This document shows, piece after piece, positions 420-21,642 of a DNA stretch of 64,000 bases. Numbering within the stretch: position 1 is the first letter of the stretch; each line of letters opens with the position of its first letter. Both the position numbers and the translations under genes were made by a program. The DNA comes from Phycisphaera sp. (GTDB lineage Bacteria; Planctomycetota; Phycisphaerae; Phycisphaerales; Zrk34), in NCBI GenBank assembly GCA_016125285.1, contig WGMA01000017.1, positions 1 through 64,000 of the forward strand. Reading direction: 5' to 3'. The notes beneath the pieces are model-generated. The model was given only the letters and a program-made list of their open reading frames with translations. It was not told the DNA's origin and searched no databases.

Positions 420-444
420 GGCGCACTGGTAGAGGGGCGCCACG

Positions 445-1040: not shown

Positions 1041-1043
1041 ACC

Positions 1044-1888: not shown

Positions 1889-1900
1889 GGAGGCATCCCG

Positions 1901-4208: not shown

Positions 4209-4211
4209 AAC

Positions 4212-5816
4212 ATGGCCGACGAGCTGAAAAAGGTGAAGCGCGGCGACCCGCTGGTCATTCCGGCAGCGACGTTCAATGCGTTCGTCGATGCGGCGTTCGA
4301 TTACCGACGCCGGCAGCGCGACGTGACGCGCGATGCCTCGCATACGTTCCGGCAACTCGGCATCATCCCGATCCGCAACGACACGGGCGAGGACCTTGAC
4401 CGATTCAGCGCCGTCGGCATCGCCGGCCCCATCATCGGCCCAGACGACAACCCCGACGAGTTTAAGAACCGGGCGATGGCATCGGGCATCAAGCCGATCG
4501 TGCCCGACCATCGCGGGCGCTTCGCCGTGATGCTCGAACCTGTCAAGGACGGCAAGGTCGCGATGGGCTGCGTCAGCGGCGTGATTCCCTGCCGGATCAA
4601 CGTCGATGAGGAGACGCACCTGCGGGCCGACATCGAGCACGACGAGACGATCCTGCTGACCGGTCACCACGGGGGCGCGGAGATTCTGTGGAAGGAGGAA
4701 GGCAAGGGCATCAAGTGGTCGATCATCAAGGTCGGCATCGCCGAGCCGCTGGCGATCACGTTCGATGTGAAGCTCGTGCAGCGGTACGGCGAGGCTGGCG
4801 AGAACTGCAAGAAGGACTGCACGTACACCTATGACATTTACGACATCCACACCGACGAGAAACTCAACGACGACGACCCGCAGGCTCCGATCGATCCGAG
4901 GCCTGAGAAAACGCAGATGATCGTCGCGACGCGCGGCACGGCGTTCTGGACGGTCAAGGAAGTGGACGGCAAGCCGGCCATCGCCGTCCAGCTCGAGGAG
5001 GCATTCGAGGAGCCCACGCCGCGCAAGCAGCAGTACGTCGTCACCGGAATCTCATGTGACGAAGGGAGCGGATCGGGCGGCGGCACGGCCGGACATGGGT
5101 CGGGCGGCTGCTGTGACTTCACGCTGAAGTATCACACGGCCAAGGTCTGCTATCCGCCGGGCACGAAGATCGAACCCGGCCCGACGTTCACCGTGCGCTG
5201 CGGCAGTTCCTCGAGCGGTTCATCGTCGGGGTCGGGATCGAGCTTCGATTCGTCGAGCGGATCGTCCAGTGGGTCGAGTGGCTCGTCGGGCTCACCGTCG
5301 AGCAGCGACTCGAGTTCGGGGAGCTCCGGTAGCCCGAGCGGCAGTTCATCGCCATCCGGCAGCCCACCGCCGTCGTCGGGGCCGTCAGGGTCATCTTCCG
5401 GGGGCTCCGGATCGGACAAATCCACCGCCATCGTTCCGGCGAGCTGGTCGCCGACGGGATACACGGCGCTGTTCGTCGAAGAGTCGCCCGAGGTGCGGTT
5501 CAACGACGTGATGGTGGTCGAGGTGCCCGCGCGGGACACGCGGCTCAGCATCGATCCGAGATTCCTCGAGGTCTGTGCCCCCGGCAGCTTGGAGGTCACA
5601 GCGTGCCAGCCCGACGCGCCGGTGCTCGTAGGCGCGCGTGTCGATGGCGGCGAAGTGGTACTCCAGTTCGCGCAGCAGAGCGCCGCGGTGGTGCGCTTGG
5701 TCATCAGCCTGACCGGCATCCGCAAGGGCTTCAGCGGTCTGCGATTCCCCGACCGCACGCAACGCCAGTTCGAGGCCAACGAGCGGTTCATCCGGAGCGC
5801 GTACCCCCATGACTGA
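4212..5816 (+). CDS. Prophage structural protein with Ser/Gly-rich linker
   Basis: The 534-aa protein has three parts. Residues 1-310 are a folded beta-rich region (DTGEDLDRFSAVGI, CVSGVIPCRINVDEETHL, a CKKDCTYTYDIYDI segment). Residues about 334-398 are almost only Ser, Gly, Pro and Asp. Residues about 399-534 form a second folded region (SPTGYTALFVEESPEVRFNDV, then RKGFSGLRFPDRTQRQFEANE). It is probably a virion-surface or tail component. The low-complexity stretch could be a flexible or glycosylated linker, since a glycosyltransferase gene lies two genes downstream. It starts 3 nt after the previous stop and overlaps the next gene by 8 nt. No named family was recognised. Confidence 0.55.
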   Translation: MADELKKVKRGDPLVIPAATFNAFVDAAFDYRRRQRDVTRDASHTFRQLGIIPIRNDTGEDLDRFSAVGIAGPIIGPDDNPDEFKNRAMASGIKPIVPDHRGRFAVMLEPVKDGKVAMGCVSGVIPCRINVDEETHLRADIEHDETILLTGHHGGAEILWKEEGKGIKWSIIKVGIAEPLAITFDVKLVQRYGEAGENCKKDCTYTYDIYDIHTDEKLNDDDPQAPIDPRPEKTQMIVATRGTAFWTVKEVDGKPAIAVQLEEAFEEPTPRKQQYVVTGISCDEGSGSGGGTAGHGSGGCCDFTLKYHTAKVCYPPGTKIEPGPTFTVRCGSSSSGSSSGSGSSFDSSSGSSSGSSGSSGSPSSSDSSSGSSGSPSGSSSPSGSPPPSSGPSGSSSGGSGSDKSTAIVPASWSPTGYTALFVEESPEVRFNDVMVVEVPARDTRLSIDPRFLEVCAPGSLEVTACQPDAPVLVGARVDGGEVVLQFAQQSAAVVRLVISLTGIRKGFSGLRFPDRTQRQFEANERFIRSAYPHD

Positions 5817-6129
5817 TTACGGCAGCGCGAAATCCTCATCCTCCGTCAGCGAGTCCGAAAGCAGCGAGCACTCGTCGAGCGGATCGAGCGCCAGCGGCTC
5901 GCCCGGTTCATCGTCCAGCGGCAGCGGGTCGGTGCCGCCGTCCGGTTCAAGCGGCGAATCATCTCGACCACCATCGTCGAGCGGATCACCGAGTGGGTCG
6001 AGCGGCACGCCTTCATCCGGCCCCTCGTCAGGTTCATCATCCAGCAGCGGAAGCCCCGGAACCTCCGGAAGCCCCGGAAGTTCCGGGGGGCCGAGCAGCG
6101 GTTCGACGCCGCCCAGCGGTTCCGATTAA
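5809..6129 (+). CDS. Serine-rich low-complexity prophage protein
   Basis: The 106-aa product is almost wholly Ser, Gly and Pro with a few Glu or Thr (for example SSGSSASGSPGSSSSGSGS), in one continuous disordered run. It begins within the last codons of the preceding gene, whose internal linker has the same composition, so the two probably share an origin. It ends PPSGSD. No signal peptide or membrane segment is seen. It may act as an O-glycosylated or flexible spacer on the virion. Composition alone cannot fix a function, and such frames can also arise by repeat expansion. Confidence 0.5.
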   Translation: MTDYGSAKSSSSVSESESSEHSSSGSSASGSPGSSSSGSGSVPPSGSSGESSRPPSSSGSPSGSSGTPSSGPSSGSSSSSGSPGTSGSPGSSGGPSSGSTPPSGSD

Positions 6130-6158
6130 TTCTCCAGCGACAGCGAGGGATCATCCTC

Positions 6159-6993
6159 ATGGACATGAAGCATTTCTTCGATCGTGTGGTCTGCATCAAC
6201 CTCGACCGGCGTGGCGACCGCTGGCATCGGTTCCAGGAGAACGTCGACAGCGCCGGCTGGCCGTTCGTCGAGATCGAGCGCTTCAGCGCCGTCGACGGTC
6301 ACAAGGTGCCGTCGCCCGGATGGTGGCGCGCCGGCGGCGGCGCGTGGGGCTGTCACCAGTCCCACGTCCACATCCTCCAACAGGCCATCCAGGACGGCGT
6401 ACAGTCCCTGCTGATCCTCGAGGACGACGCCGTGCTGCCGCAGCGATTCCCCGAGGTGGTCGAGGCCTTCCTGTCGCGGGTGCCCACCGAATGGGACGCC
6501 ATCATGCTCGGGGGCCAGCACTTGCGGCCGCCGGACATCGTGGACGAGGGGGTGGTCAGGGTCCACAACGGCAACCGCACGCATGCCCACGCTCTGCGCG
6601 GCAACTATATTAAGGATGCATACCGCCACCTCTGTGATTACCCCAACCACGCCCACCGGCCCCGGTTCCACGTCGATCACCGGCTCGGGATGCTCCACGA
6701 GAGCGGCAAGTACAAGGTCTACGCCCCCGATCCGTGGATGATCGGCCAGGCCAACGGCCGCAGCGACATCGCCGGCGCGGAGTTCTCGCTCCGCTTCTGG
6801 TCGGGCGACCCCCGGAACCCGGAAGCGCTCCCGCCCTTCGTGGCCGTCATCGGCCTTCACCGGTCCGGCTCCAGCGCCCTGGCCGGCGTCCTGCACCATC
6901 TCGGCGTCCACCTCGGCAACAAGCTCGGCGGCTACGAACCGGCCGGCGGGTTCGAGGCGGTCACGCTGGCGCATCTGTGCGAACGGGCGTACC
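6159..6993 (+). pseudogene. Glycosyltransferase family 25 fused to a sulfotransferase domain, truncated
   Basis: Residues 1-200 match GT25/LPS-type glycosyltransferases: VVCINLDRRGDRWHRF, ERFSAVDG, GCHQSHVHILQQAI and LILEDDAVLP with the acidic EDD. From about residue 226 a sulfotransferase-like start appears (FVAVIGLHRSGSSALAGVL, a PAPS-loop-like sequence). Coding character stops after LCERAYP near 6993. The open frame continues to 7466, but there it is the complement of a ParB-like gene. The protein is thus cut inside its second domain. It may have glycosylated a phage or cell-surface target, perhaps the adjacent Ser-rich proteins. Confidence 0.75.
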
Positions 6994-7000
6994 CGCGTTC
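6981..7000. other. Recombination junction centred on an imperfect palindrome
   Basis: The 20 bp GAACGGGCGTACCCGCGTTC pair in 8 of 10 positions around a central GT/AC. The + strand glycosyltransferase and the minus strand ParB-like gene both lose coding sense at 6987-6994 (GCGTACCC, shared by both). The point lies about 360 bp beyond a large serine recombinase gene. It could be a recombined attachment site or a deletion joint. Confidence 0.45.
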
Positions 7001-7357
7001 CTTCATCGCGGCGATCTCACCCAACAACTCAGCCGTGTGCGCCTGCCGGCGTGCCATGTTTTCCACGAGGCTCATCAACAACAAGTCTTCGCTGGCTACG
7101 CTCAACAGCCGTGCCGGGATCATTGACTCCCCGAGGGTTCTGAAGGCCAAGAGTCGGCCCTCTCCGCACACCAGGTCATACTTGCCTCCACCGTACTTGC
7201 CGCTGGCGAGTGTGACGGTGATCGGCTTCTTGAGACCGAGCTGCTTGATGCTCGCGACGATCTCTTTGAACTTCTCCTTGCCACGTAAGCGGGTGTTGAC
7301 GATGTTGATTTCATCGACGGGGATCATTTCGACGGGTTCTTCTTGTTTGCGTGTCAT
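6990..7357 (-). pseudogene. ParB-like N-terminal domain protein, truncated
   Basis: Read on the minus strand, the product starts MTRKQEEPVEMIPVDEINIV and carries ParB/Sulfiredoxin-fold motifs: GLKKPITV, CGEGRLLAFRTLG...IPA and LLLMSLVENMAR. These are the DNA-binding and nuclease-like N-domain elements of ParB/RepB relatives. It stops making sense after AAMKERGY, where the helix-turn-helix part should follow. The remaining frame to 6932 is antisense to the glycosyltransferase gene. Its start overlaps the recombinase stop by 4 nt, so the two form an operon. Such pairs are common on integrative elements. Confidence 0.75.
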
Positions 7358-8910
7358 GCGCGCCTCTCGATCTTGGTTCGTTGGGCCAGTTGGGCGAAGC
7401 CATCGAGCGAATCAAATCGGTACGCGTCCACGTATGCCGCGTTGTGTTCGGCCAATCGCAACGTAGGAGCGTGGAGATCGATCAACGGCAGAAGGTAAAA
7501 ATCGCACGGCTGTTCGTTTGAAGCATCCATGCGCACAAGAATCGTGATGTCCGGCAACCGACGATCGGACAAGCGAACGGTCCAACGCGAGGCGCCGGCT
7601 TGTGTATGACGGCAACGGGAGATCGCGATCGCGGCGGTGTATTGACCATTGACTCGCAAGTGGTCCTGGTCCAGTTCCGTTACCACGGACGCGCCGACCG
7701 CCTCGAGCCGCCCGATTGCGTCCTCCAGAAGGTTGGGATAAAGCTCACGGATTCGGCGGTTGATCTGAATGTATTCAAAGTCTCGGTTCGGCACGTAGCC
7801 GGCCAGCCGGTACGCATCGCCCAGGGTTCCGAATCGAGCGCGAAAGCACGCGCTCGATGGCAAACCATCGGTGTCGTCAATCAAATGCGCGGTCAGGTCA
7901 GAATGCTGCGCCAGCAGCTTCTTGAGCAGTTCAATCATCTCCTCATCGCTGAATCGGCGGCTGCGCTCTTGGATGATGCCTTGGGCCGTGTAGAACGTGG
8001 CGGGGTCCACGATCCCCTCAAACGCGCCGTCGGCTCTGATCCACATGTCCGGTGGGTTGACCACGCGCTTCTGCTTGAGCTTGAACGACCTGCGGTTGTA
8101 GACGTTGTTACCGATGTACTTCTCGTTGGTCAGCACCTGCCGCACGGTCGCACGCGTCCAGTCACGCCCCAACTCCGTCTTGATTCCCTGGCCGTTGAGA
8201 TACTCAGCGATCTCCGATTCGACCTTGTGCTGTCTGATGAACATCTCGTAAATAAGGAGAACGATGCGCACCTCTTCGTCTGGCCCCGGCACCAGGATCA
8301 CGCGGTCGGTCTGCAGGCTCTTGTGCTCGCCGCGCTTCAGCAGGCCCTTCGAGGCCCCGCTCTGATCGATCAACATGCGCCGCAGACCGTAACCCGCGGG
8401 GCCGCCCTGACGAAAGCCCTTCTCGATGAGGTTGCACTGGCCCTGAAAGACCTTGACTGACAGCTCCCGGCTGTACTCGCCCGCCATCGTGCGCTTCAGC
8501 CCCTTGAGCACGTTCGCCTGGATGCTGCCGTCGTTCTCGAACTGCTCGTTGCAGTAGTGGACGCGGACCCCGGCGCGTTTGCAGATGAACTCGTAGTAGG
8601 CGCTTTCATCTGCGTCAAGAAACCGACCCCAGCGGCTGATGTCGTAAACCAAGATGTTCTTGAACTCGGTACGGCCGTCCTGCACGTCCTTGATCAGTTG
8701 CTGTAGCGACTGGCGTCCGCCGAAGGTCAAGCCGCTCTTGCCGCCGTCTTCGTAGCTCGCCACAACTTCGTATCCACGCTGCTGGGCGTATTGCGTGATG
8801 ACCTTCGCCTGGTTCTCGGTGGAGTATTGCTGGTGCTCCGTGGACATTCGAATGTACTGCGCCGCGGGAATGGGAGCGGGCGACTCTGTCGTCGAAGATA
8901 TGGGCATCAC
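7354..8910 (-). CDS. Large serine recombinase (site-specific integrase/invertase family)
   Basis: The 518-aa protein has a resolvase-type catalytic domain (residues about 16-165) with YIRMSTEHQ holding catalytic Ser23 beside Arg21, followed by YEDGGKSG and ILVYDISRWGRF. The recombinase domain comes next, with KGFRQGGPAGYGLRR, LGRDWTRATVRQVLTNEKYIGNNVYNR and a C-terminal region rich in RFSDEEMIELL-like helices. It would cut and rejoin DNA at att sites through a Ser-DNA link. It looks full length. It is followed by the overlapping ParB-like gene. No strong ribosome binding site precedes the ATG. Confidence 0.9.
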   Translation of the reverse strand: MMPISSTTESPAPIPAAQYIRMSTEHQQYSTENQAKVITQYAQQRGYEVVASYEDGGKSGLTFGGRQSLQQLIKDVQDGRTEFKNILVYDISRWGRFLDADESAYYEFICKRAGVRVHYCNEQFENDGSIQANVLKGLKRTMAGEYSRELSVKVFQGQCNLIEKGFRQGGPAGYGLRRMLIDQSGASKGLLKRGEHKSLQTDRVILVPGPDEEVRIVLLIYEMFIRQHKVESEIAEYLNGQGIKTELGRDWTRATVRQVLTNEKYIGNNVYNRRSFKLKQKRVVNPPDMWIRADGAFEGIVDPATFYTAQGIIQERSRRFSDEEMIELLKKLLAQHSDLTAHLIDDTDGLPSSACFRARFGTLGDAYRLAGYVPNRDFEYIQINRRIRELYPNLLEDAIGRLEAVGASVVTELDQDHLRVNGQYTAAIAISRCRHTQAGASRWTVRLSDRRLPDITILVRMDASNEQPCDFYLLPLIDLHAPTLRLAEHNAAYVDAYRFDSLDGFAQLAQRTKIERRA

Positions 8911-9060: not shown

Positions 9061-9546
9061 TTAAGAGGTGCCGTTGTCGATGAAGAGGCCGCAGCATCTG
9101 CCTCGAGCTTGTATGGCGCTCGCTAGGTCGGGCATGTCCGCATCCAGGAGGGTTCGACGCAGTCGCTTCACCGATGCCCGGACTGCGTCATCGGAACAGC
9201 GGCGCTGCCAGACCTCATTCATGAGTAGATCGAACGAGTAGTAGCGACCCGGATGCTGTGAAATGCGGTGGAACAAACGGAACAGCAGCGATGGTCCGAG
9301 CGCACATTGTCGTCCTCGCCACTCGACACGACAAGTCGCGACGCTGACGACGAGTTCGCCGTGCCGCGCCGTCAGGTCAGCGTGAGGCCTTGGGCGCTGG
9401 GCAACCTTTCCTCGCGGTGTGTCAGCTGCGACACCCGACTTCGCCGCTCGCCGGCTTGAGCATGTGAGCCGGTGGATTGACGGAAAGATCGAAACGGGTT
9501 GGGTGTTCCTCGACAAAGAAGAAACCGCCGAACTCGTTAAATACAT
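9061..9546 (-). CDS. Winged-helix DNA-binding protein (OmpR/PhoB type), start uncertain
   Basis: The last 100 residues form a transcriptional-regulator winged helix: VEWRGRQCALGPSLLFRLF, YYSFDLLMNEVWQRRCSDDA, and the recognition helix VRASVKRLRRTLLDADMP. No receiver domain is present. Similar small proteins accompany serine recombinases on mobile elements and probably regulate them. The frame is open to 9546, but its first 50 residues lie opposite another gene fragment and look non-coding. The real start is probably near 9400 and could not be fixed, because no ATG or GTG is in frame there. Confidence 0.55.
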   Translation of the reverse strand: MYLTSSAVSSLSRNTQPVSIFPSIHRLTCSSRRAAKSGVAADTPRGKVAQRPRPHADLTARHGELVVSVATCRVEWRGRQCALGPSLLFRLFHRISQHPGRYYSFDLLMNEVWQRRCSDDAVRASVKRLRRTLLDADMPDLASAIQARGRCCGLFIDNGTS

Positions 9547-9604
9547 TAATGTCCTTACCCAACCAGCCCACTCGAAACCCGAGGAGCAATCGCGTGTCCC
9601 GTAA
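9440..9604 (+). pseudogene. 3' remnant of the gene that preceded the substrate-binding protein
   Basis: The frame reads RWIDGKIETGWVFLDKEET, then AELVKYINVLTQPAHSKPEE, and stops at 9602-9604. That stop overlaps the downstream GTG start, as in an operon. AAA, GAA, ATT and AAT codons match the neighbouring substrate-binding gene rather than the GC-rich surroundings. Upstream of about 9440 the sequence turns into the antisense of the winged-helix gene. This looks like the end of an operon partner cut by arrival of the recombinase segment. The family is unknown. Confidence 0.4.
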
Positions 9605-10967
9605 ACAGTTCGCCGTAATCAGCGTCATCATCATCCTATTGGCCGCGGGGGCTGCCTACTGGCTTTGGCGGACCGAGCAACGGCCAATCGGTAACGCGAC
9701 GCCCGTGAGTGTGCGTCTGCCCATTCCAATCATCGAAGCTGGGTCGGCGCCGTTCTTCGTAGCCCAGGATCGCGGCTATTACGCCGAAGAAGGGCTCGAT
9801 GTCAAATTCGAGATGGGCTCCCGCGAGCTTAACCCCGTCAAGACCGTGGCTGCCGGGACCGACACGTTCGGCGTCCTTGGCGGGCCCGACACGCTTCTTG
9901 TCGCCCGCTCCAAGGGGCAACCGCTGAAAGCCATCATGGTCGTCCACAGGAACTCGAACTTCCCCGTGCTCATTTCGCTGGCGTCGTCCAATGTAAGCGA
10001 AGTCGAAGATCTGCAAGGTCAGAGGGTCGGGTTTTTCTACGGGCATATTTCGACCGATGTGCTGAGGAACCTGTTCCGCAAAAAAAACGTGCAGGTCACC
10101 GAGGTCGATGTGGGATTCGACTACAGCCAATTGCTCTCAGGTGAGCTTAAAGCGTGCTGGGGCTTCCGCACAACCGCTGGGCTGGACCTGCCGGCTAAGG
10201 GAGTGGAAATCACCATGATCAACCCGGCGGATGCCGCCGGGATCATCAGCCACGGCTATACCGTCTTCGCCACGGAAAAGACCATTGCCGGTGACCCCGA
10301 GTTGGTCGAGAGATTTGTCCGGGCCACCCTCCGCGGCATCCGCTACACCGTGGATCACCCGGAAGAAGCCAACAAGTCGCTTCTGAAACGAGACCCCAAC
10401 CTTGATGAAGCGCTCTCCCTGAAGCGCCTGAAGATGTACAACGCGGTCACCAGCGCGAGTGAAGCATATCCGCCGGGATATATGGACAAGGATATGTTTC
10501 AATCCACCTACGTCCGGCTTCGCGAGGAAGGCGTGATCGAAAAGGAATTCGATGTCACGGCGGCGTTCAACGACAGCCGCGCCCACCGGCTAGCTCGGTG
10601 GGCCTTTGAGGGCCATCCGTGGCACGTCATCGTCAGCAACGGCGCGTTCGCCGCGCTGATGCATCGAATTCTCCTAGAACACAGCGACGGCCGTGCCATC
10701 CCACCTTATGGGGGTTCGACCACCACCGTCGAATTCCAAGGTGTCACTGTGGAACTCCCGACGCGGCTGCTTAGTTTGATAGCGCGAGATGACCACGACT
10801 TCGATCTGCTGGTCGAAGGGATCATCGAAGGTCCCCACCATGAAGTAGCTGCGAATGTGATTATCCTTACGTTGCTCGAAGCGCTCTTCGACGTGGCCGC
10901 CGGCGGCGTGTCGGACTCGCACCCGGTCGACGGGCCGGAGGAGGGGAACGATGCGGCGACTTGCTGA
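9594..10967 (+). CDS. ABC-type substrate-binding protein (NMT1/SsuA-like) with an aberrant C-terminal fusion
   Basis: The start is the GTG at 9594 with GAGGAG 7 nt upstream (457 aa). An N-terminal membrane anchor or signal (residues 3-22, FAVISVIIILLAAGAAYWLW) precedes a NMT1/THI5-type binding protein: APFFVAQDRGYYAEEGLDV, GVLGGPDTLLVARSKG, LQGQRVGFFYGHISTDVLR, and FVRATLRGIRYTVDHPEEA. Such proteins deliver sulfonates, nitrates or pyrimidines to ABC importers. The native protein seems to end near residue 328 (FDVTAAFND). The frame then crosses a hairpin repeat and enters the 3' part of an unrelated gene. No permease or ATPase of its own is nearby. Confidence 0.75.
   Translation: MSRKQFAVISVIIILLAAGAAYWLWRTEQRPIGNATPVSVRLPIPIIEAGSAPFFVAQDRGYYAEEGLDVKFEMGSRELNPVKTVAAGTDTFGVLGGPDTLLVARSKGQPLKAIMVVHRNSNFPVLISLASSNVSEVEDLQGQRVGFFYGHISTDVLRNLFRKKNVQVTEVDVGFDYSQLLSGELKACWGFRTTAGLDLPAKGVEITMINPADAAGIISHGYTVFATEKTIAGDPELVERFVRATLRGIRYTVDHPEEANKSLLKRDPNLDEALSLKRLKMYNAVTSASEAYPPGYMDKDMFQSTYVRLREEGVIEKEFDVTAAFNDSRAHRLARWAFEGHPWHVIVSNGAFAALMHRILLEHSDGRAIPPYGGSTTTVEFQGVTVELPTRLLSLIARDDHDFDLLVEGIIEGPHHEVAANVIILTLLEALFDVAAGGVSDSHPVDGPEEGNDAATC
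10581..10603. repeat. REP-like hairpin at the fusion joint
   Basis: GCCCACCG and CGGTGGGC form a perfect 8-bp stem around GCTAGCT. The CCCACCG-GCTAGC-CGGTGGG form resembles short palindromes scattered between planctomycete genes. It sits inside an open frame, exactly where the substrate-binding protein stops resembling its family. Confidence 0.55.
10605..10967 (+). pseudogene. 3' fragment of an unknown gene linked to the transport cassette
   Basis: The last about 120 codons of the fused frame read as a separate globular domain: WHVIVSNGAFAALMHRILLE, IPPYGGSTTTVEFQGVTVEL, LIARDDHDFDLLVEGIIEG, and LTLLEALFDVAAGG. No start codon with a ribosome binding site precedes it, so it has probably lost its 5' part. 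Its stop overlaps the next start by 17 nt, which shows that it was the natural first gene of the downstream operon. The function was not recognised. Confidence 0.4.
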
Positions 10968-11649
10968 TTCGGTTCTACACAGCACGGTGGAGCTAGGAAC
11001 TCTCAGTGCCGCGCTGCTGCTCCTCCGGCTGTGCCTGGAGGACGGTGAAGGTGCGCTCGATGCCGCGCGCGAGGAGTGCAACCGCGCACTGCCCGTCTTC
11101 GATGCGCTCGGGCGAACGGTCCGGACACCGGAGGATCTGGCTAGATTCGAGCGACGGCTGGACCAGTTGGTTGAGCAGACGGGAGCTGAGCTGCGAGATA
11201 TTGAGACGTTGGTGTGCGCGGGGATGGAGGCCGAGCTGACCGACCGGCTCGCCGATCGGTTTCCGGAGCGGCGCCTGGTGATCGTGCCGCACGACGAGCG
11301 CGCCGACCGGAACCGGATTCGATCGAACTACGGCAGGAGCGTTCTGGTCACCGACACGGCGGGTGTCGAGGCGTTCGCGCATCCATTCGAGACGGCACTT
11401 GTCGTGCCGGTGTTCGACGGCGGTGAGGATTCACTTTTGACGACCTATCCCATCGCCGCGCGCATCCTCAACGACGATACCACACGGACGTTCGCCGAGG
11501 TCGTAGCGATCGACCTGCTCGGCGTGCCGCTCCACTACTATTCACCCGCGTTAGCGCGCATTCCAGACGTCCGGTTCACCCGGATCATCCCCGTCGATGT
11601 GAAGCCCGCGTTGCCCGCACCCGCCATCCCCGAGGAGGTGACCCGATGA
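10951..11649 (+). CDS. Unknown 232-aa protein of the permease/exporter cassette
   Basis: This protein was not recognised. Residues 1-110 are helical and rich in Leu, Glu and Arg (ELGTLSAALLLLRLCLEDGEG, ARFERRLDQLVEQTGAELRD). Residues about 110-215 alternate strand and helix like a Rossmann fold (RRLVIVPHDERADRNRIRSN, VLVTDTAGVEAFAHP, AEVVAIDLLGVPLHYYSP). There is no signal peptide or clear membrane segment, so it is probably cytoplasmic. It overlaps the upstream fragment by 17 nt and the downstream permease gene by 4 nt, so all three are coupled. A regulatory or enzymatic partner of the transporters is possible. Confidence 0.55.
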   Translation: MRRLADSVLHSTVELGTLSAALLLLRLCLEDGEGALDAAREECNRALPVFDALGRTVRTPEDLARFERRLDQLVEQTGAELRDIETLVCAGMEAELTDRLADRFPERRLVIVPHDERADRNRIRSNYGRSVLVTDTAGVEAFAHPFETALVVPVFDGGEDSLLTTYPIAARILNDDTTRTFAEVVAIDLLGVPLHYYSPALARIPDVRFTRIIPVDVKPALPAPAIPEEVTR

Positions 11650-12956
11650 GTACCGTTGCCATTTCGATCCTTGCCGCGTTCATCGCGACCATCGTTGTGC
11701 AGGCGGCATTGCCGCGGTGCCGCCTGCTAACTGTGCTGGCCGGTGCCACGACCTGCGCGTTGCTCGCCGTGGCCGGCGGCTACAGCGACATGGGAGACCT
11801 GTGGCGGAACGTCCCCTGGAACGTCATCGTGATCTTGGTGTGTCTGAAGCTCTTCACCGACCACGTCCTGCAGACGAACGCGCTGGGGCGGTCGGCAGTG
11901 CGGGCGTGCGAAATGAGCCGGGGCAGCGAGGCGGGGCTGTTGATCGTGTTCCCGATGCTGATGTTCGCGCTGTCCGGCGTCGTGAATAATCTGGCCGCCA
12001 TGCTGGTCTTGTTGCCCGTCCTGCTGGCCATCATGAAGGTCCTCGGTCCGGATCAGGGGTACGTCAGCTTGCTGCTGTCGATGCTGCTGGTCGCCTGCAA
12101 TCTGGGCGGAGCGGCCAGCCCGATCGGGGATTTCCCCGCCGTACTGCTGCTCGGCCAAGGGAAGATGTCCTTCAACGATTACCTGATGCACGCTGGCATC
12201 CCCGCGGTTCTCATAGCCGTGCTGGTGCAGACGGCTTTCGTCGCGGTGCATTGGGGGCGGCGCCGCGCCGCGCCCGATACGCTCGGTCGGCGGTTCGCGG
12301 TGGCGACGATCCAGCGGCTGTACCGCCGGACACGCGTGCGATGGGGCATGCTGACGCCGGCCGGAGCGGTCTTCCTAGGGATGATCATCGCATGGTCATG
12401 CAACGTCTCGCCAGACCTGGTCGCACTCGTGGGCGTCGCCGTGCTGCTCGCTCCCACCGGGAAGCGCGGTGATGATCTCATCCGGCAGGGGATCGACGTG
12501 GAGCCGGTCGTCTTCCTGCTCGGCTTGTTCGTGATGATCGCGGCTGTCGATGCCGCCGGCGTTCTCGATGCGATGGCCGCGCCGATCTTCGAGCTGGACG
12601 CCTCGCCGTGGCTGATATCGTGCATCTTCTTTGTGGCAGTCGGTGTCCTCACCGCGATCTTCTCCGCCGGGCCGTCGATGGCCGCGTTCCTGCCGCTCGC
12701 GGAGCGGATGACGGTCCACCTCCCCGCAGAAACCGTCTATGTCGGCCTCGCGCTATCGGTTTGCGCCGGGTCGTCGTTCTTCCTGACGGCCGCGACCAGC
12801 GGGGTGCTGACGCAGAGCCACGTCGACGCGGCGCGCATCGCCACGGCTGACGGGAGCCACGCGCGGTTCGGATTTGGGCAGTTCCTGCCGTACGGCGCCA
12901 TGTCCTTCGTGCTGATCCAGAGCGGCGCAATCGCATACGTCCTGCTGTTCAGTTGA
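11646..12956 (+). CDS. SLC13/ArsB-NhaD-type ion transporter permease
   Basis: The 436-aa protein has about 11 membrane helices. It carries features of the ion-transporter superfamily (DASS/ArsB/NhaD): FALSGVVNNLAAMLVLLPVL with the conserved NN, and LVACNLGGAASPIGDFPAVL, matching the N.GG..TP.G.P.N-type re-entrant motif. A second repeat holds LTAIFSAGPSMAAFLPLAE. It would move an oxyanion, dicarboxylate or sodium across the inner membrane. The substrate cannot be told. It overlaps the 232-aa gene by ATGA and is followed after 12 nt by an ABC exporter gene. Confidence 0.75.
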   Translation: MSTVAISILAAFIATIVVQAALPRCRLLTVLAGATTCALLAVAGGYSDMGDLWRNVPWNVIVILVCLKLFTDHVLQTNALGRSAVRACEMSRGSEAGLLIVFPMLMFALSGVVNNLAAMLVLLPVLLAIMKVLGPDQGYVSLLLSMLLVACNLGGAASPIGDFPAVLLLGQGKMSFNDYLMHAGIPAVLIAVLVQTAFVAVHWGRRRAAPDTLGRRFAVATIQRLYRRTRVRWGMLTPAGAVFLGMIIAWSCNVSPDLVALVGVAVLLAPTGKRGDDLIRQGIDVEPVVFLLGLFVMIAAVDAAGVLDAMAAPIFELDASPWLISCIFFVAVGVLTAIFSAGPSMAAFLPLAERMTVHLPAETVYVGLALSVCAGSSFFLTAATSGVLTQSHVDAARIATADGSHARFGFGQFLPYGAMSFVLIQSGAIAYVLLFS

Positions 12957-12968
12957 AAGGAGGAGACC

Positions 12969-14750
12969 ATGCTTCACGTTCTGCACGAAACCGTAAGTAT
13001 GGCACAGCGCGCCTTCCTGCTGTGTGGCAGGAGGCAGAGGGTACTGTTGCTGGTCGCCGTGATGCTGATGGCGCTCACCGGCGCATTGGCGACGGTCTCG
13101 CCGATCGTCGTCGGCGCGCTGGTGGACGACATGCTGCGAACCACTTACATGAACTTCGGGCCGGCCGTGCCGTACCTCGCGGTGATCGTTGTCACCGTGA
13201 TGGTAAAGGAGCTGCTGACCGTCGTCCGCAAATGGATCGTGGAAGACACGGCCACCCGGCTCCAGCAGCAGCAGACAACTTCGCTCGTCGCGCACTTGCT
13301 TCGCATCGATCTCTCATTCTTTGCCCGCCATCGCTCAGGCGCGCTCAACGGTCGCGTACACCGGAGCGTCGAGGGGCTGATCCGGCTGCTCAAGCTGGGC
13401 TTCCTGGATTTCTGCCCCGCAGCGTTCATGGCGGCCTGCGCCCTCGCGGTGGCGATGTGGAGGGAGCCGGTGGTCGGCGGCATTATGGCCGGTGGCATAT
13501 TGTCGGGCTTTGGGCTAATCCTCTGGCAGGTGGCCTCTCAGCGCGGCGTGCGCATCGATCTGCTGCGGGAACGCGAAGCGATGGACGGGACGGTCGTCGA
13601 GGTATTGGGCGGGATCGAGACCGTTCGCGCAGCGAATGCGGGGGACATCGAGGCGGGACGCGTCGACGAGGTGGCCGAGCGACTCCGGCGGCGGGAGATC
13701 CGACACCACATCCAGATGGCGTTGTTCGACGCGGCGAAGCTGCTGACCGAGAGCCTCTTCCACATCGCCGTGCTGAGCGTGTCGGTCTGGTTCGCCATCC
13801 GCGGCCTCATTTCGGTCGGAGAGGTGCTGACGTTCTCGATGCTGTACCTTAATGTCGCCGCTCCCCTCCGCGAGCTGCACCGAATCGTCGATGAAGCGCA
13901 CGAGAGCACGCTGCGTGTGCTGGACCTCTTCAGCCTGTATGCCTCGCCGCCCGACCGGTCGTTCCTTCTGGAGAGCGGCTGCATGCCGATGACGACTCGT
14001 ATGCCCGCGACGGGGCCGGTCCTCGAGCTCTCGCACATCCGGTTCTCGTATCCGGGTTCGAATGGAAGCGGGCCGACACTGGACGACTTTAATCTCACGA
14101 TCAATGCGGGGGAATGCGTCGGGGTGGTCGGACGGACGGGTTGCGGAAAATCTACGGTCAGTAAGCTGGCCCTCCGGCTCATGCACACCGACAGCGGCAC
14201 AATCCGCTTCCGGGGGGTTCCAATCGAATGCGTTTCGCGCGAAGTGATCGCGTCACAGGTCGGGTACGTGGCACAGAGCGGATTCCTGTTCTCCGGCTCG
14301 ATCGCCGACAACATCGCGTACGGCCGCGGGAAGGTCACGCAGGCCGACATCGAAGTCGCGGCGCGGCGCGCCGGCATTCACGACGAGGTCGTGCATGAAC
14401 TCGGCGGCTATGCGGCGAGGCTCGCCGAGCGCGGTTCCAACATCTCCGGCGGACAGCGACAGAGATTGCTCCTGGCCCGCCTGTTCCTGCACGATCCGCC
14501 ACTCCTCGTGCTCGATGAGGCGACGTCCGCACTCGACAACCGGACAGAAGCCGTCGTGCAGGAGGCGCTCGACGAACTGATGATCGGCCGCACTACACTC
14601 GTCATCGCCCATCGGCTCCATACCCTCCGCAATGTGGATCGGATCATTGTGATGGACGCCGGCAAGATCGTGGAGGAGGGCACGTATTCTGATTTGCTGA
14701 GTGCGAGCGGACAGTTTGCTGAATTGCATCGGTCGACCGCCGTTCGATAA
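12969..14750 (+). CDS. ABC exporter, fused permease and ATPase
   Basis: The 593-aa protein has a six-helix type I exporter domain (residues about 25-320) and an ATPase domain (about 345-590). The Walker A GRTGCGKST is near residue 387, the Q-loop is in VGYVAQSGFLFSGSIADNIAYG (in part), the signature is SGGQRQRLLLARL, Walker B is LLVLDEATSAL and the H-loop is VIAHR. All catalytic elements are present, and it should work as a homodimer. AAAGGAGGAGA lies before the ATG. No peptidase C39 domain is present, so a cleaved-leader peptide substrate is not indicated. It closes the cassette, and a strong terminator lies 180 nt downstream. Confidence 0.9.
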   Translation: MLHVLHETVSMAQRAFLLCGRRQRVLLLVAVMLMALTGALATVSPIVVGALVDDMLRTTYMNFGPAVPYLAVIVVTVMVKELLTVVRKWIVEDTATRLQQQQTTSLVAHLLRIDLSFFARHRSGALNGRVHRSVEGLIRLLKLGFLDFCPAAFMAACALAVAMWREPVVGGIMAGGILSGFGLILWQVASQRGVRIDLLREREAMDGTVVEVLGGIETVRAANAGDIEAGRVDEVAERLRRREIRHHIQMALFDAAKLLTESLFHIAVLSVSVWFAIRGLISVGEVLTFSMLYLNVAAPLRELHRIVDEAHESTLRVLDLFSLYASPPDRSFLLESGCMPMTTRMPATGPVLELSHIRFSYPGSNGSGPTLDDFNLTINAGECVGVVGRTGCGKSTVSKLALRLMHTDSGTIRFRGVPIECVSREVIASQVGYVAQSGFLFSGSIADNIAYGRGKVTQADIEVAARRAGIHDEVVHELGGYAARLAERGSNISGGQRQRLLLARLFLHDPPLLVLDEATSALDNRTEAVVQEALDELMIGRTTLVIAHRLHTLRNVDRIIVMDAGKIVEEGTYSDLLSASGQFAELHRSTAVR

Positions 14751-14808: not shown

Positions 14809-14830
14809 ATACAAGGTCATGACCCTGTAT
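14809..14830. repeat. 22-bp near-perfect palindrome
   Basis: ATACAAGGTCA is followed directly by TGACCCTGTAT, which pairs in 10 of 11 positions. It lies in a lower-GC gap between the exporter gene and the terminator. It could be an operator or an end of a small element; no partner gene is obvious. Confidence 0.4.
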
Positions 14831-14926
14831 CCTCCGTTAATTCCATGAGTTCCCGCCAAATGGCTTCTATACCACGTCGGCCACCCCGATTGAGTTTGAC
14901 TAACGAGTCCCGCCCGAACGGGACTT

Positions 14927-14965
14927 AACGACAAGGCGGCCCGAAAGGCCGCCTTGTCGTTTTTT
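14927..14965 (+). terminator. Rho-independent terminator
   Basis: A perfect 15-bp stem (AACGACAAGGCGGCC with GGCCGCCTTGTCGTT), a CGAAA loop and a T tract at 14960-14965 end the + strand island. A smaller hairpin (AGTCCCG/CGGGACT) precedes it at about 14906-14925. The sulfatase cluster on the minus strand ends 65 bp to the right. Confidence 0.9.
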
Positions 14966-15029
14966 ACGGATTCCCTGTTCGCCCGACCTGCCCGGGCCGC
15001 CGACCCGCACGTTGCGGCGACCCGACGCG

Positions 15030-16445
15030 CTACTCGTCCTTGTCCTTGCCCTTCCTCACGTACGGCACGACCGGTGCGCGCTCGCCGGGAGTGGGCAACT
15101 CGGCCGCGAGGGCCTTCTTGATCGCGGCAAACTCGGCGACCGACGCCACGTTCTTCCACTCGTGCGGGTCGGTTTCTCGATCGTACAGTTCCTCGGAGCC
15201 GTCGCCGTATTGGATGTAGCGGTAACGCTCGGTGCGGACGCAAAGATGATTCTGATAGGCCGTGACGACGGGCCGCTCGCGCGCGGCGCTGGGGTCCTTG
15301 AGCAGCGGGACGAGCGAAACGCCGTCGAGGTGGGCCGGCTTGGGCAGGCCGGTCAGTTCGGCGAGCGTCGGATAGATGTCGAGCAGGGAGACGGGGCGCT
15401 CGCACGTCTGGTGCGGCGCGGTGACACCGGGCACGCGGAACATGAGCAGGCAGTTGGTCGCCTCCTCCCACAGCGTGCCCTTCTGCCAGTGCAGCTTCTC
15501 GCCGACGTGGTAACCATGATCGCTCAGCAGCACGACGATCGTGTTGTCGCGGTACGGGCTGGCGTCGAGGGCGTCGAGCACGCGGCCCATCTGCGTGTCG
15601 GAATACGTCGAGCTGGCGAGGTAGCCCTGCAGCCCGCCCTTGTACTGACCGTTCGCCTTCGCCCACGCGTACGTGCCGCTGATCAGCTTCTGCCCGGCCG
15701 CGGGCACGTCGTCGAGGTCGTGCTCGTTGATCGGCGGCGCGACGATCTGGTCCTGCGGGTACATATCGAGGTACTTCTGCGGCACGTAGTACGGCGCGTG
15801 CGGGTGGAACACGCCGCACGCGAGGAAGAACGGCTTGTCGTGCTTCTGCCCCAGCTGCGCGATCGCCAGATCCGCCATCTTCGTGTCGTTCATCTCCGAT
15901 TCGGCGAGGTGCGTCGGGCCCCAGTCGTTCTCGCTCTTGCGCGAGTTGCCGTTGAGCATCGCGCCCGGCGGGATCGGGTCGCGCTTGTGCGACGCCTGCG
16001 CGTCCCAGATCTTCTTGAGGTCGTATCCGTGCGAAACCTTGCCGAACGACGCGATGAAGTAGCCGTTCTCCTTGAACAACTCGGGCATGGATATCTTGCC
16101 GGGCAGGACCTTCGAGTCGGCGACGGCGACACCGTTGTCGGTCACGCCGGACTTCCACGGCGCCACGCCGCTGAGGAACGACGTGCGCGACGGGCAGCAC
16201 TTCGGCGCCGCGGCAAAGGCGTGCGTGAAGTTGACGCCGCTGTCGGCGAGCTTGTGGATGTTCGGCGTAACGACCTTGCCCGTGTAGCGGTTGGGGTCCT
16301 GAAGCAGCCACGTGTTCAGGTCGTCGATGACCAGGAACAGGACGTTCATCCGCTTGTCCGGCTCCGCGGTCCGTGCGGGGCGATGCACGCCGAACAACGC
16401 GGCGACGACCAACGCGATCATGAAATACTTGCGATGCTTTGTCAT
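15030..16445 (-). CDS. Secreted sulfatase, iduronate-2-sulfatase-like
   Basis: The 471-aa protein has a signal peptide (residues 1-27, ending ARTA) and a type I sulfatase fold. The metal site opens with VLFLVIDDLNTW. The formylglycine motif is CCPSRTSFLSG with Cys83 (C-x-P-S-R). Later conserved parts include FFLACGVFHPHAPYYVP, VLLSDHGYHVGEKLHW and LYDRETDPHEWKNV. It should hydrolyse sulfate esters from glycans in the periplasm after Cys is matured by a formylglycine-generating enzyme, which is not in this window. It is the last gene of the minus strand sulfatase run, 24 nt after the deleted paralogue. Confidence 0.9.
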   Translation of the reverse strand: MTKHRKYFMIALVVAALFGVHRPARTAEPDKRMNVLFLVIDDLNTWLLQDPNRYTGKVVTPNIHKLADSGVNFTHAFAAAPKCCPSRTSFLSGVAPWKSGVTDNGVAVADSKVLPGKISMPELFKENGYFIASFGKVSHGYDLKKIWDAQASHKRDPIPPGAMLNGNSRKSENDWGPTHLAESEMNDTKMADLAIAQLGQKHDKPFFLACGVFHPHAPYYVPQKYLDMYPQDQIVAPPINEHDLDDVPAAGQKLISGTYAWAKANGQYKGGLQGYLASSTYSDTQMGRVLDALDASPYRDNTIVVLLSDHGYHVGEKLHWQKGTLWEEATNCLLMFRVPGVTAPHQTCERPVSLLDIYPTLAELTGLPKPAHLDGVSLVPLLKDPSAARERPVVTAYQNHLCVRTERYRYIQYGDGSEELYDRETDPHEWKNVASVAEFAAIKKALAAELPTPGERAPVVPYVRKGKDKDE

Positions 16446-16469
16446 CGTGGTGTGGCCTCTCGGGCTGGG

Positions 16470-16955
16470 TTATTGCGCCGACTTCTTCTTCCTGCGTGAG
16501 TCCTTCGAACTGTCTTCGTCCGCTGGCTTGTACTCCGACTCGATCGACATGAAGGCGTTGAGGATCGGCTGGAGCCGCTCGCGATCGGTGCTGAAGTCGC
16601 TGCTGGCGGCCTGATGCTCGCTGTATCGCTCCTTGTCGGAGGTGATCGGGATGTCGTACAGCTTGCCGTCCTGGTTGAGGCGAAAACGTGCGTCGCGAAC
16701 GAAGTAGCCCTTCTTGAGATTGACCAGCACGTGGTCGCGGTCTCTGCCGTCGGTCCCCATCAGGTAAGCGTTGTTGAACCGCAGCCCTTCACGCGCCATC
16801 TGGTCGAGGGTCGGCGTCGTGTAGATCGTGCTGCCGTAACAGCCCAGCCCCTCGGCGCCGATGTCGTCGGCCATGATCACGATGACGTTGGGTCGATCCG
16901 CGCCGAAGGCGCAGCTCGCGAGGACGGCCACAATCAGGAGGATTCGCTTGATCAT
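16470..16955 (-). pseudogene. Sulfatase with large internal in-frame deletion
   Basis: Residues 1-66 give a normal sulfatase N-terminus: signal peptide, RPNVIVIMADDIGAEGLGCYG with the metal-binding DD, and EGLRFNNAY. The sequence then jumps at about 16757 to what is normally the C-terminal end (GTDGRDRDHVLVNLKKGYFV, RDARFRLNQDGKLYDIPI, and a Lys-rich tail). The formylglycine motif CxPxR and the catalytic centre are absent, so it cannot be active. About 300 residues are missing compared with neighbours of 470-500 aa. The reading frame is kept, and its start overlaps the previous sulfatase stop by 4 nt. Confidence 0.85.
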
Positions 16956-18385
16956 TTGGCTTCACTCTCCGCATCACCCGGCGGCCTGAGATTCTGCTGA
17001 AAATCAGCGTGAAAGGCATCCATCAGTTGCTTCAGCCGAGCGGCGATCTCGGGATGCTCATCAATAAGGTTCTTCTGCTCACCGATGTCGTCACGCAGAT
17101 TGAACAGCTGAACCGCAAGCTCGGCATTGACCTTCTGCGACTTGTCCTTCTTTTTCGATTCATGCTTGTCCGGCTTGTCCTTCGCATAGCGATACTTCCA
17201 GTCGCCCTCACGAAAGCCCTGGACCGACCTGCCCGCGAAGTAGCAGATGGCGTCGTGCGGCGACCTCGCGCCGGCCTCACCGGAGAGCAGCGGCCAGATG
17301 TCCTTGCCGTCGATGACACGATCGCTCGGAGCCGCGCCTCCCGCCAGCTTCACCAGCGTCGGCAGCAGGTCCATCACCGTGATCGGCTCACCGGTCTCAC
17401 GCCCCGCGGGAATCCGGCCCGGCCAACGCGCGATGAACGGCACGCGTGTGCCGCCCTCGTAGGTTGTTCCCTTGCCGCCCCGCAGCGGCCCCGCGCTGCC
17501 CATCTTCGAAAGGTTCGGACCGTTGTCCGACGTGAAGATCACCAGCGTGTTGTCGTCGAGGCCGAGGGCTTTGAGCGTTTTGAGGACCTCGCCGGTGCTC
17601 CAGTCGAGCTCCTGGATCGCGTCGCCGTAGATGCCGCGCCGGCTCTTGCCGACGAACGCCTCGGAGGCGTGCAGCGGCAGGTGCGGCATGTTGTGCGCCA
17701 GGTAGAGGAAGAACGGCACATCCTTGTGCTCGGTGATGAAACGGATCGATTCCTTCGTGTACCGCTGCGTGAACTGCGTCGGGTCCGCCGGCACTTCGAT
17801 GACCACGTTGTCACGGATGAGCGGGCACGGCGCCTCGTCCATCTTGAGGATCTTCTCGAGCGTGTAGCCCTCGCGAAAGACGCAGTCGCTGGCGTACTTC
17901 TTGAGCGTGGGATGATAGGTCTGGCTGTGCGAGGCCGGCGTTCCATACCACGTGTCGAAGCCGTGATTCATAGGCTGGAACATGTCTTCGTTGCCGAGGT
18001 GCCACTTGCCGATGATCGCCGTGGCGTAGCCCTGTCCCTTGAGCAGTTCAGGCAGGGTCACCTCGTCCGGGTTCAGCCCGATCGTGTTCCGGGGGAACAG
18101 CACGCCGCCGATACCCACGCGCTGGGCGATGCTCCCGGTCATCAGCGAGGCGCGCGTGGGAGAGCAGACCGGCGAGACGTAGAAGCTCGAAAACCTCGTG
18201 CCTTCCTTCGCCATCCGGTCGACGTTCGGCGTGGCGATGTCATCGGCGCCGTAGCAGCCCAGATCACCATAGCCGAGGTCATCGGTGAGGATGATCACGA
18301 GGTTGGGCCTATCCGCGGCGGCGACACCACTGGCAGCGCACGCGAGTCCGACGACGCACACCATCAACACGCCGAGTGTCTTCAT
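16952..18385 (-). CDS. Secreted arylsulfatase A-like sulfatase
   Basis: The start is placed at the ATG of MKTLGVLM with GGAGGAGC 6 nt upstream (477 aa). The signal peptide spans residues 1-24. The metal site is [18 protein letters not shown]. The formylglycine motif is [14 protein letters not shown] with Cys74. Other conserved segments are [42 protein letters not shown] and [20 protein letters not shown]. The sequence fits arylsulfatase or N-acetylgalactosamine-sulfatase types that act on exposed sulfate groups. A Lys-rich insert ([15 protein letters not shown]) lies near the C-terminus. The stop overlaps the start of the deleted paralogue. Confidence 0.9.
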
Positions 18386-18444
18386 CGTCCAAGCTCCTCC
18401 GTCGCTCACTGAAGTCGACATCCCGTTCACCGCAACAGCCCGCG

Positions 18445-19944
18445 CTAAGGATTGGTTTTCCAGTGGAAGGTCTCGCCTTCGATCACCAGGTTCTTTTTCT
18501 TGTTAAGGATGGGCCCGGGCTCGGCGAACGTCGTGGGCGCCGACTTGCGGAGCTCCGCGATGATCGCTTCGTGGCCGCCCTTCACCGCGAGGTTGTACCA
18601 CTCGTTGGGGTCGTCGCGAACGTTGTAGAGTTCCTCGCCGCCGTCGGCGTAGCGGATGTAGCGCCAGTCTCGGTTGATCACCGCGTACGCGCCCGGTTCC
18701 ATGTAAGGCAGATAGACGCTTCGATCTTTCGCCGTCGCGGGGTCGCGTAGGATCGACGCGATCGATTGCACTTCGAGTTTCTGGCCGGGCTTGGGCAGCG
18801 CGCACAGATCGACGAGCGTCGGGTAGATGTCGATCAGGCTGACGCTCGCGTCGGGCCGTGCGCCACGCGCGATCTTCGGCCCCGCCCACACAAACGGCAC
18901 ATGACTCGTGCGTTCCCACAGCGTGTGCTTGCCCCACTGACCCTTCTCGCCGTGGTGGTAGCCGTGGTCGCTCCACAGCACGACGATGGTGTTGTCGCGA
19001 TACGGGCTCCGATCCAGCGCGTCGAGCACACGCCCGACCATCGCATCCGCGTAGCTCATGCACGCGAGGTAGCCGTGGATCGCGTCCTTCACCGCGCCGA
19101 GTTCCTCGAGCCGCTCGTGGATCTTCGCGCGGTTCGTCATCTTCTTGCGGATGTCGTCCGGCAGGTCGTCGCGATCGTCATCCTTGTACGGCGGCAGCTG
19201 GATCTCGTCGGTCTTGTACAGATCAAAGTATTTCTGCGGACAATAGTTCGGGTAGTGCGGCGCGTAGAAGCCCACCGCCAGAAAGAACGGCTTGTCGCGC
19301 GGCTCGGCGAGCTTGCTCGCCACCCAATCGGCTCGACGCGTGTCGGCCAGCGCGGCCTCCTGATCGTTCGGCACGGCGCCCCAATCCAGGAACGCCGCCG
19401 GCGTCCACTTCTTGCCGCGGTTGTACACGCTGTGCGGCAAGGGATCGGGCATGGGCGTGTCGGCGGCCCACGAGTCGAGCGGCCAGCCGGTGCGACGCTG
19501 CTCGGGATTTCGGACGAAGAACTCCGTCCAGCCGCGCAGATCGAGATAGCCCGCCGGGTGGTGAAAGAGCTTGCCCGCGCCGAACGTCTCGTAGCCGGCT
19601 TCATGAAAGCTGACCTGCAGCGGTCGCAGGTCGGGGTGGTTGGCGAAATAGATCTGGGTTTCGTAACAGCCGGTCGTCGAGGCGTACTGTCCCGTGAAGA
19701 TCGACGCACGGGACGGAGCGCAGTAGACGCCCGCGGTGTGGGCGTTGGTGAAGCTGACACCGCGCGCCGCGAGCCGGTCGATGTTGGGCGTGATCGCGTG
19801 CGGCGTGGCGCCGAGGTGGCCGACCCAGTTGTTCATGTCATCCACCGCGATGAACACGACATTCGGCGGGGCCGCACCGCCTCGCACGGTGCACGCCATG
19901 CAAATCGCCATCACCACAATTGCGTTACAAATCCATCGAAGCAT
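18445..19944 (-). CDS. Secreted sulfatase, iduronate-2-sulfatase-like
   Basis: The start is placed at the ATG of [10 protein letters not shown] with GGGAG 7 nt upstream (499 aa). A signal peptide of about 24 residues precedes [20 protein letters not shown]. The formylglycine motif is [14 protein letters not shown] with Cys75. [52 protein letters not shown] and [20 protein letters not shown] are conserved sulfatase segments. It differs enough from the gene at 15030 to be a separate specificity. It lies third in the tandem run, 59 nt before the next gene, so it is probably cotranscribed. Confidence 0.9.
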
Positions 19945-20016
19945 CGATCGCTCCCGAATGCTGACCATTGACTTCATCCGCGACGCACACATGGAAAGGC
20001 TCGACATTCTGCTCAT

Positions 20017-21555
20017 CTACTTCTCGTCCTCCTCCAGCGGGCGCTGGCTCTCGAACGGCCCCCACTGCATGCGGATCTCGTAGGCCTTGTCCTTCTTGTA
20101 GACCTCGGGGTCGTAGTCGGGATTCACCATGGGGATGCGCGCGCCGACCTGCTTGAGGTAACTCATCATCTGCTCGAAGAGCTTGCGATGTTCTTCGGGG
20201 TGGTCGCGCGCGATGTTGTTGACCTCCCCCTCGTCCTTCGACAGATCGAACAGCATGGGGATGTCGGGGCGTTCGTAGAACACCATCACCTTGCGTGAGC
20301 CGCAGACCATCGCCGAGTGCGGCATCGACGTACGGTAGTGCGGGTAGTGGAAGTAGAGGCAGCGGTTGACGAACGCGTCGTCGGGCTTTTCGCCGGCCAT
20401 GTAACCGGCGAGGCTGACACCGTCGATATCCTTGAGGCTGAGCGGGTCGCCCCCGGCCCACTCGACGAACGTCGGCAGCAGGTCGATGTTCGCCACGTTC
20501 GCGTTGAACACCGAGCCCGGCTGGATGCCCGGCCCCTTCACGATCATCGGCACGCGGATGCCGCCCTGCCACACCCACCACTTCGCCGCGTGCAGCGGCT
20601 GCGTGAGCCCCGGCAGGAAGTGGTGCCGGTAGCCGTTGTCCGACATCATCACCACGTAGGTGTTGTCCTCGATGCCGAGCTGCCTGATGCGATCGAGCAC
20701 GGCGCCGATACGCCCGTCGAGGTCTTCGCCCATGCCGAGCCAGACCGCCGGATCGTCCTTGCGTTTGACCGTTGCGGCGGTCGTGCCGTGCTGCTTGTAG
20801 TAGGCCTGCACCTCGGGCAGCCGCGCGTACTTCTCACGCGTGGCGGGCAGGCACTCGCGGCCCTCGTGCATCGCGTAGTGCGAGATCTGCAGGTAGAACG
20901 GCTTGCCCGCCTTGACCTGATCCTCCATGAACGCGATCGCCTTCTTCGTGACGCTGAACATCAGCTTCGGATCGGTCAGATCGTCGGGCAGGTGAACCTT
21001 CCCGGCACCCTCGACCGTGTTGCCGGGGTTGTTGTCGGTCGCGCCGTCGTGCACGGCGTAGCCCTCGGCGCCGGGATCGCCCCGCATGTGCCACTTGCCG
21101 ATGTGGGCGCAGACGTACCCGAGCGGATTCAACGCCTTGGGGATCGTCACCGCGTCGGCGTCGATCGTCTCGTCCGAGATACACGGGATCACGGGAAACT
21201 TTTCGTGGCCCTTCTTGTCGTAATAGTCCTGCCCCTTGGCGTTCATGTACACGGTGAAGCCGCTGCGCGCCGAGGACTTGCCGGTCTGCACACACACCCG
21301 CGCGGGCGAGCACTGCGGCGACCCGTACGCGTTGCGGAACTTCATGCCCTCGCTCGCCAGCCGCTCGACGTTCGGCATCCGCAGCACGGGCATGTGCGAG
21401 TTGGGCATCGCGTCGTCCATCAGCACCGGCGTGCCGTTCCACGCCCAGTCGTCGATGTACAGCAGCACGATGTTCGGCTTGGCTTCGGCGCCGCGTGCGA
21501 ACATCGCCAGCGTCCATGCCACGATCAGCGCAACAAACAGCCGTCGCACGTTCAT
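20017..21555 (-). CDS. Secreted sulfatase
   Basis: The start is placed at [10 protein letters not shown] with AAAGGGA upstream; an ATG 15 nt earlier is possible. The 512-aa protein has a signal peptide (1-25) and [20 protein letters not shown]. The formylglycine motif is [14 protein letters not shown] with Cys82 (C-S-P-A-R, a rarer Ala at the fourth position). [36 protein letters not shown] and [20 protein letters not shown] follow. The chain ends in a charged EDEK tail. It is the first sulfatase after the sigma/anti-sigma pair, 87 nt downstream. Confidence 0.9.
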
Positions 21556-21642
21556 GTGTGTCCCTTTCATCCGGTTGGTCTTCCGCGATGCTTCCGCGCC
21601 TTCGATCACGCTGATCGCTCGCCGCGAGCGCCCATGCTGCGG

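Follow-up and report, generated by a model that had tools for sequence, protein, structure and literature searches.

Carriers and exporters nearest to the cassette

Permeases of the ion-transporter superfamily are secondary carriers that move small ions or anions by an elevator mechanism, and secondary carriers usually act as single proteins. In this work, we analyzed a gene cassette from Phycisphaera sp. (Planctomycetota) in which a permease of this superfamily is encoded next to two small proteins, X and p232, and an ABC exporter. The cassette lies in a stretch of 64,000 nt (assembly GCA_016125285.1, contig WGMA01000017.1), hereafter the window, to which coordinates refer unless another contig is named.

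The permease (436 aa; 11646-12956, + strand) matches the CitMHS family (PF03600) with 101.4 bits against a gathering score of 31.9, and has about 11-12 predicted membrane segments. The nearest named family is the magnetosome transporter MamN (NF040989), also of CitMHS type, with about 437 aa and a nearly full-length alignment. Six cassette permeases were tested against NCBIfam, and each had MamN as its top match, with scores of 68-130 bits (125 bits for the window permease) where the cut-off is 500; for several of them NhaD came next. Among the ORFs read near the window copy and at the other cassette loci, none was recognised as a magnetosome gene, and we know of no counterpart of X or p232 in the MamN system. 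These matches raise the alternative that the cassette permease might be an NhaD/MamN-like antiporter that exchanges monovalent cations for protons to control pH or sodium, and that p232 and X might serve it as regulatory subunits. Antiport, which would draw on the description of MamN as a homologue of a Na+/H+ antiporter (PMC3905215), seems unlikely to us: the window permease scores far under the cut-offs not only of MamN but also of NhaD (36.2 of 577 bits with TIGR00775 and 33.9 of 80 bits with NF038006), and an FPA motif follows the conserved GD in every aligned cassette permease.

The label "SLC13/ArsB-like", given to the permease in a preliminary description of this DNA, is fair in that ArsB and NhaD belong to the same superfamily; their models nevertheless return only 20-36 bits, far under the cut-offs (for ArsB, 23.8 of 457 and 20.1 of 760 bits), and no ArsA, ArsR or ArsC genes were recognised among the cassette neighbours read. 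The permease profile picked out just two kinds of solved structure, carriers of the VcINDY type (DASS carriers) and Pho90, a remote likeness confined to the N-terminal half of the permease; these structures belong to a Pfam family other than that of the permease.

The ABC exporter (593 aa; 12969-14750, +) resembles half-size exporters of the MsbA type in having one membrane domain (PF00664) and one ATPase domain (PF00005), with Walker A, signature, Walker B and H-loop all intact, so that the assignments first proposed for this gene and for the permease were both borne out. It differs from MsbA in its score, 313 bits with TIGR02203 against a cut-off of 602, and in sharing a coupled gene set with X, p232 and a secondary permease. 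With PADLOC, the cassette ABC proteins matched only ATPase/P-loop models and were assigned to no defence system.

A comparable set of genes lies on plasmid pRUMAL01 of Ruminococcus albus 7 (Bacillota; WP_013483454 to WP_013483457), where an ABC exporter, two small hypothetical proteins of 171 and 195 aa and an SLC13-type permease are encoded by adjacent genes on one strand. The same ABC-small-small-permease arrangement was found on the rumen contig L045 (IMG/VR, Bacillota), which also carries a conjugative coupling protein. The R. albus permease scores 117 bits with PF03600 and falls into the same clade as that of the window. Unlike in the window, the ABC gene stands first and not last, and the small Bacillota proteins resemble X and p232 in place and size only: they cannot be aligned above chance, and their profile scores are no better than chance.

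Gene order in the window and in other genomes

The cassette of the window begins inside a composite ORF (9477-10967, +), which encodes a solute-binding protein and, in frame with it, an X protein without its N-terminus (10572-10967), assigned by its similarity to the X family. It continues with the gene of p232 (232 aa; 10951-11649, +), a soluble, family-less protein, and with the permease and ABC genes. The four coupled frames overlap by 17 nt (X/p232) and 4 nt (p232/permease) or are separated by 12 nt (permease/ABC), exactly as first described, and since the genes overlap or nearly touch, a single transcript is indicated. This transcript probably ends at a hairpin with a perfect 15-bp repeat and a run of T behind it (14927-14961), an inverted repeat between the cassette and a converging sulfatase gene that is likely to be a terminator shared by both. 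An array of five sulfatase-like genes lies at 15030-21609 (-), one of which (16470-16955) encodes only 161 aa and appears internally deleted; such an abundance of sulfatase genes would point to Planctomycetota.

The order X-p232-permease-ABC recurs in another genome of the window's class (G781, contig L043), which was found with a profile of five p232 sequences. There, X occupies 604-1098, p236 (in the position of p232) 1101-1811, the permease 1790-3178 and the ABC gene 3178-4950; identities to the window proteins amount to 49% for the ABC protein at the same position, 40% for the permease, 33% for X (over 124 aa, E 6e-11) and 29% for p232. X-p232-permease is present in four further genomes of the phylum (loci L033, L034, L035 and L056), the last of which (G393) has no ABC gene, and L032 has p232 and the permease only. 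The p232 homologues of these six loci each adjoin the same permease type, and the permeases beside them in L032 to L035 are 38-53% identical to that of the window. Wherever p232 occurs, its gene lies immediately 5' of the permease gene and, if X is present, 3' of X. No locus was found with X or p232 but without a neighbouring permease of this subfamily. The L032 permease (5951-7262 of that locus) shows an apparent frameshift near 6700-6790, either a sequencing error in a low-completeness genome or the mark of a pseudogene.

That the four genes came together by accident is hardly credible, even granting that the ABC gene is sometimes missing: the trio X-p232-permease is found in six loci, the window included, whose contexts are otherwise unrelated, and the full order is repeated in G781. 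For the trio, this recurrence refutes a chance neighbourhood. The ABC gene adjoins the cassette in 4/9 loci and is missing beside the other five, so it may be a mere frequent neighbour. The core unit is X-p232-permease, to which ABC is added in some genomes, which qualifies the four-gene unit of the preliminary description.

A permease tree that included 20 other CitMHS proteins from relatives placed the eight cassette permeases, the Bacillota pair among them, in one clade (support 100/99). As judged from this tree, the cassette permeases share a single origin, and within the ion-transporter superfamily (CitMHS) they make up a new subfamily, with 10-14 membrane segments by a crude hydropathy count. 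The R. albus permease reaches 143 bits against that of the window, whereas the best other CitMHS protein in 200 relatives reaches at most 39.6 bits.

The cassette is rare. It was found in 6/392 genomes of the phylum and 2/397 of the class, the window's genome being counted in both; a p232 search of the 392 phylum genomes gave nearly full-length relatives in four genomes besides the window's, and a single-sequence search found no full-length p232 in 100 relatives, mostly of the same family or order. Beyond the phylum, the search extended to plasmids and viral contigs, and genome_contigs was scanned with two short patterns. No p232 relatives were found in genome_contigs or plasmids and no permease relatives in genome_contigs, and scans of viral_contigs with p232, the permease and alignments returned the plasmid-like contig L045 as their only match. 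No description of the cassette was found in the literature searched. The earlier view of an unrecognised system is thereby upheld, as the order recurs in other genomes and matches no known transport system.

The small proteins X and p232

The first gene of the cassette had been reported as an unknown domain (10605-10967). This fragment is indeed family-less, with no significant match in Pfam or NCBIfam, yet it is no stray scrap: it is the C-terminal part of the composite ORF and corresponds to X, since a profile built from the X proteins of five other loci gives it 32.4 bits (at most 8.6 bits in 1000 shuffles) and the gene order recurs. X consists of a module of about 40 aa present twice, each copy with a conserved GPxHHxxAN-like turn. 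The profile of repeat 1 recovered repeat 2 in 5/5 phylum proteins tested, above all 1800 shuffles, and by eye the Bacillota counterpart can also be read as two modules. On L045 (6905-7365), the X counterpart appears by eye as two consecutive small frames with one repeat each, a split which suggests that the two modules are able to function as separate polypeptides. In L033, L034 and L035, the small gene X stops right at the start of p232. Two roles considered for X were dropped: metal binding by its His-rich stretches, because the N-terminus of the L056 protein lacks them and the HH turn is missing in Bacillota, and that of a RiPP precursor, because no core region rich in Cys or Ser/Thr was seen in X.

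p232 likewise lacks a family: nothing in Pfam, NCBIfam or PHROGs matched it significantly, and its matches in the Protein Data Bank were due to chance only; the early remark that two proteins of the cassette could not be placed is therefore correct, while its designation of p232 as "Rossmann-like" found no support from profiles or structures. One weak PADLOC match to pAgo (12.6 bits, E 0.0086) was read as chance. An eIF2B/ISOCOT fold was rejected at the profile level, where hhalign of nine p232 sequences, Bacillota ones among them, against PF01008 proteins returned a probability of 0.1%. AlphaFold gave a pLDDT of 37.5 for p232 alone and of 32.0 for the counterpart from L045 when p232 was supplied as a second row. 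A p232 match in genome G354 was also rejected, as it was lost with the profile search and a search next to it found no cassette permease. Intact copies of X and p232 have neither a signal sequence nor a clear membrane span.

Proposed role, spread and state of the window copy

Our preferred interpretation, to which we assign a probability of about 0.4, is that of a horizontally spread accessory transport cassette, an efflux module with two soluble partners. Like others of its superfamily, the permease would operate as an elevator, carrying a small ion, carboxylate or oxyanion through the inner membrane, with export the likeliest direction. X and p232 would act in the cytosol as partners of the permease, binding the substrate or a signal and gating or supplying the carrier, and would take the place of soluble domains carried by some superfamily members. 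Where present, the ABC exporter might expel a related or modified compound, and the cassette as a whole would give tolerance to a toxic solute; the two-way transport or resistance role proposed at the outset is likewise conceivable for it. With some reserve, we also put forward that X and p232 may found two families, as soluble subunits of a multi-component permease that is ABC-coupled in some genomes and was transferred between phyla on plasmids. To our knowledge, no such multi-component permease with soluble subunits has been described. If the partners are real, the cassette would offer a test case for soluble proteins controlling or feeding elevator-type carriers, and a testable hypothesis for proteins annotated just as hypothetical, two of them in the sequenced R. 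albus 7.

Uptake has to be weighed against efflux. The permease could import a di-/tricarboxylate or another anion nutrient under the regulation of p232 and X, with the binding proteins as a scavenging context; uptake carriers prevail among CitMHS proteins and among the remotely similar structures of VcINDY and Pho90, and in two loci a gene of importer type lies upstream, that of an NMT1-type binding protein in the window and those of an ABC importer in L032 (5' of p232; ATPase and permease by Pfam, binding protein by eye), which would fit uptake and counts against efflux. However, the two loci do not have the same importer-type neighbours, and the remaining loci have none. We regard uptake as improbable and prefer efflux because the recurrent companion is an ABC exporter and not an importer, no catabolic genes travel with the cassette, and its distribution is patchy and partly plasmid-borne, which does not amount to proof.

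Several observations make horizontal spread likely: codon usage is atypical, a recombinase and a ParB gene lie upstream, two loci are plasmid-borne or plasmid-like (R. albus pRUMAL01 and L045), and the cassette is rare. Mean log codon scores, with a reference of just seven host genes neighbouring the cassette, were 0.02 for the binding protein, -0.01 for X and 0.11 for p232, against 0.32-0.51 for other genes. At 6932-8910 (-), an ORF with a ParB N-terminal domain adjoins a serine recombinase (PF00239, PF07508). Patchy distribution, plasmid carriage and atypical codons together suggest an accessory function. The ParB/recombinase pair cuts into a glycosyltransferase/sulfotransferase-like ORF (at 6159) at its 3' end, like the boundary of an element. 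Ahead of the recombinase, the region 78-6130 contains short coupled genes resembling phage structural genes (capsid and tail-like) and is possibly a prophage or phage-derived element.

The junction at the start of the cassette concerns the state of the window copy. Residues 90-298 of the composite ORF match NMT1/THI5 and belong to an SsuA-type solute-binding protein with an N-terminal membrane anchor (9549-10571, +; PF09084, 155 bits), and the X part follows without a stop. Of the 348 residues tested, alignments with relatives of the binding protein extend as far as residue 341-347, and the closest one (L058) ends at the matching place (...REQGVITREFDYRSAYSNEILERLQ; window ...REEGVIEKEFDVTAAFNDSRAHRLA); since relatives end at matching residues, the binding protein is nearly complete and X begins at once. 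To judge from these alignments, X was fused by a rearrangement to the 3' end of the binding-protein gene, which lies outside the conserved cassette: no comparable gene precedes X in the other loci whose upstream sequence was read. The fusion of X to the binding protein means that the window copy may be impaired.

A further reading, which we entertain tentatively, takes the window copy to be decaying or inactive, with X drawn into the wrong compartment by the exported binding protein and the cassette a passenger of a mobile element. The window X, about 35 N-terminal residues shorter than that of L043, lacks its N-terminal region and own start, which bears out the first report of a truncated gene, and the adjacent serine recombinase and ParB remnant and the atypical codon usage are in keeping with decay. 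Both repeats of X are kept, however, and p232, the permease and the ABC protein have conserved motifs and apparently intact frames; moreover, X may still arise from an internal start, and L032 has no X at all. Decay concerns the state of this one copy and is compatible with the cassette being an efflux module.

A winged-helix regulator-like ORF (9061-9546, -; PF00486 Trans_reg_C, 30.4 bits against a cut-off of 26.2) lies divergent to the composite ORF, and it is possible that it regulates the cassette or the neighbouring recombinase element. On the R. albus plasmid, a divergent gene 5' of the cassette (L044, 992-2689, -) starts with an OmpR-type winged helix that scores slightly under the cut-off (25.5 of 26.2 bits); the occurrence of such a gene in both places may be coincidence. 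No resistance genes of known type were recognised beside the cassettes except for CutA1, about 7 kb downstream in L045. This divalent-ion tolerance gene (PF03091, 108 bits) is found there together with an ORF that looks TIR-like by eye (14820-16747 of that contig).
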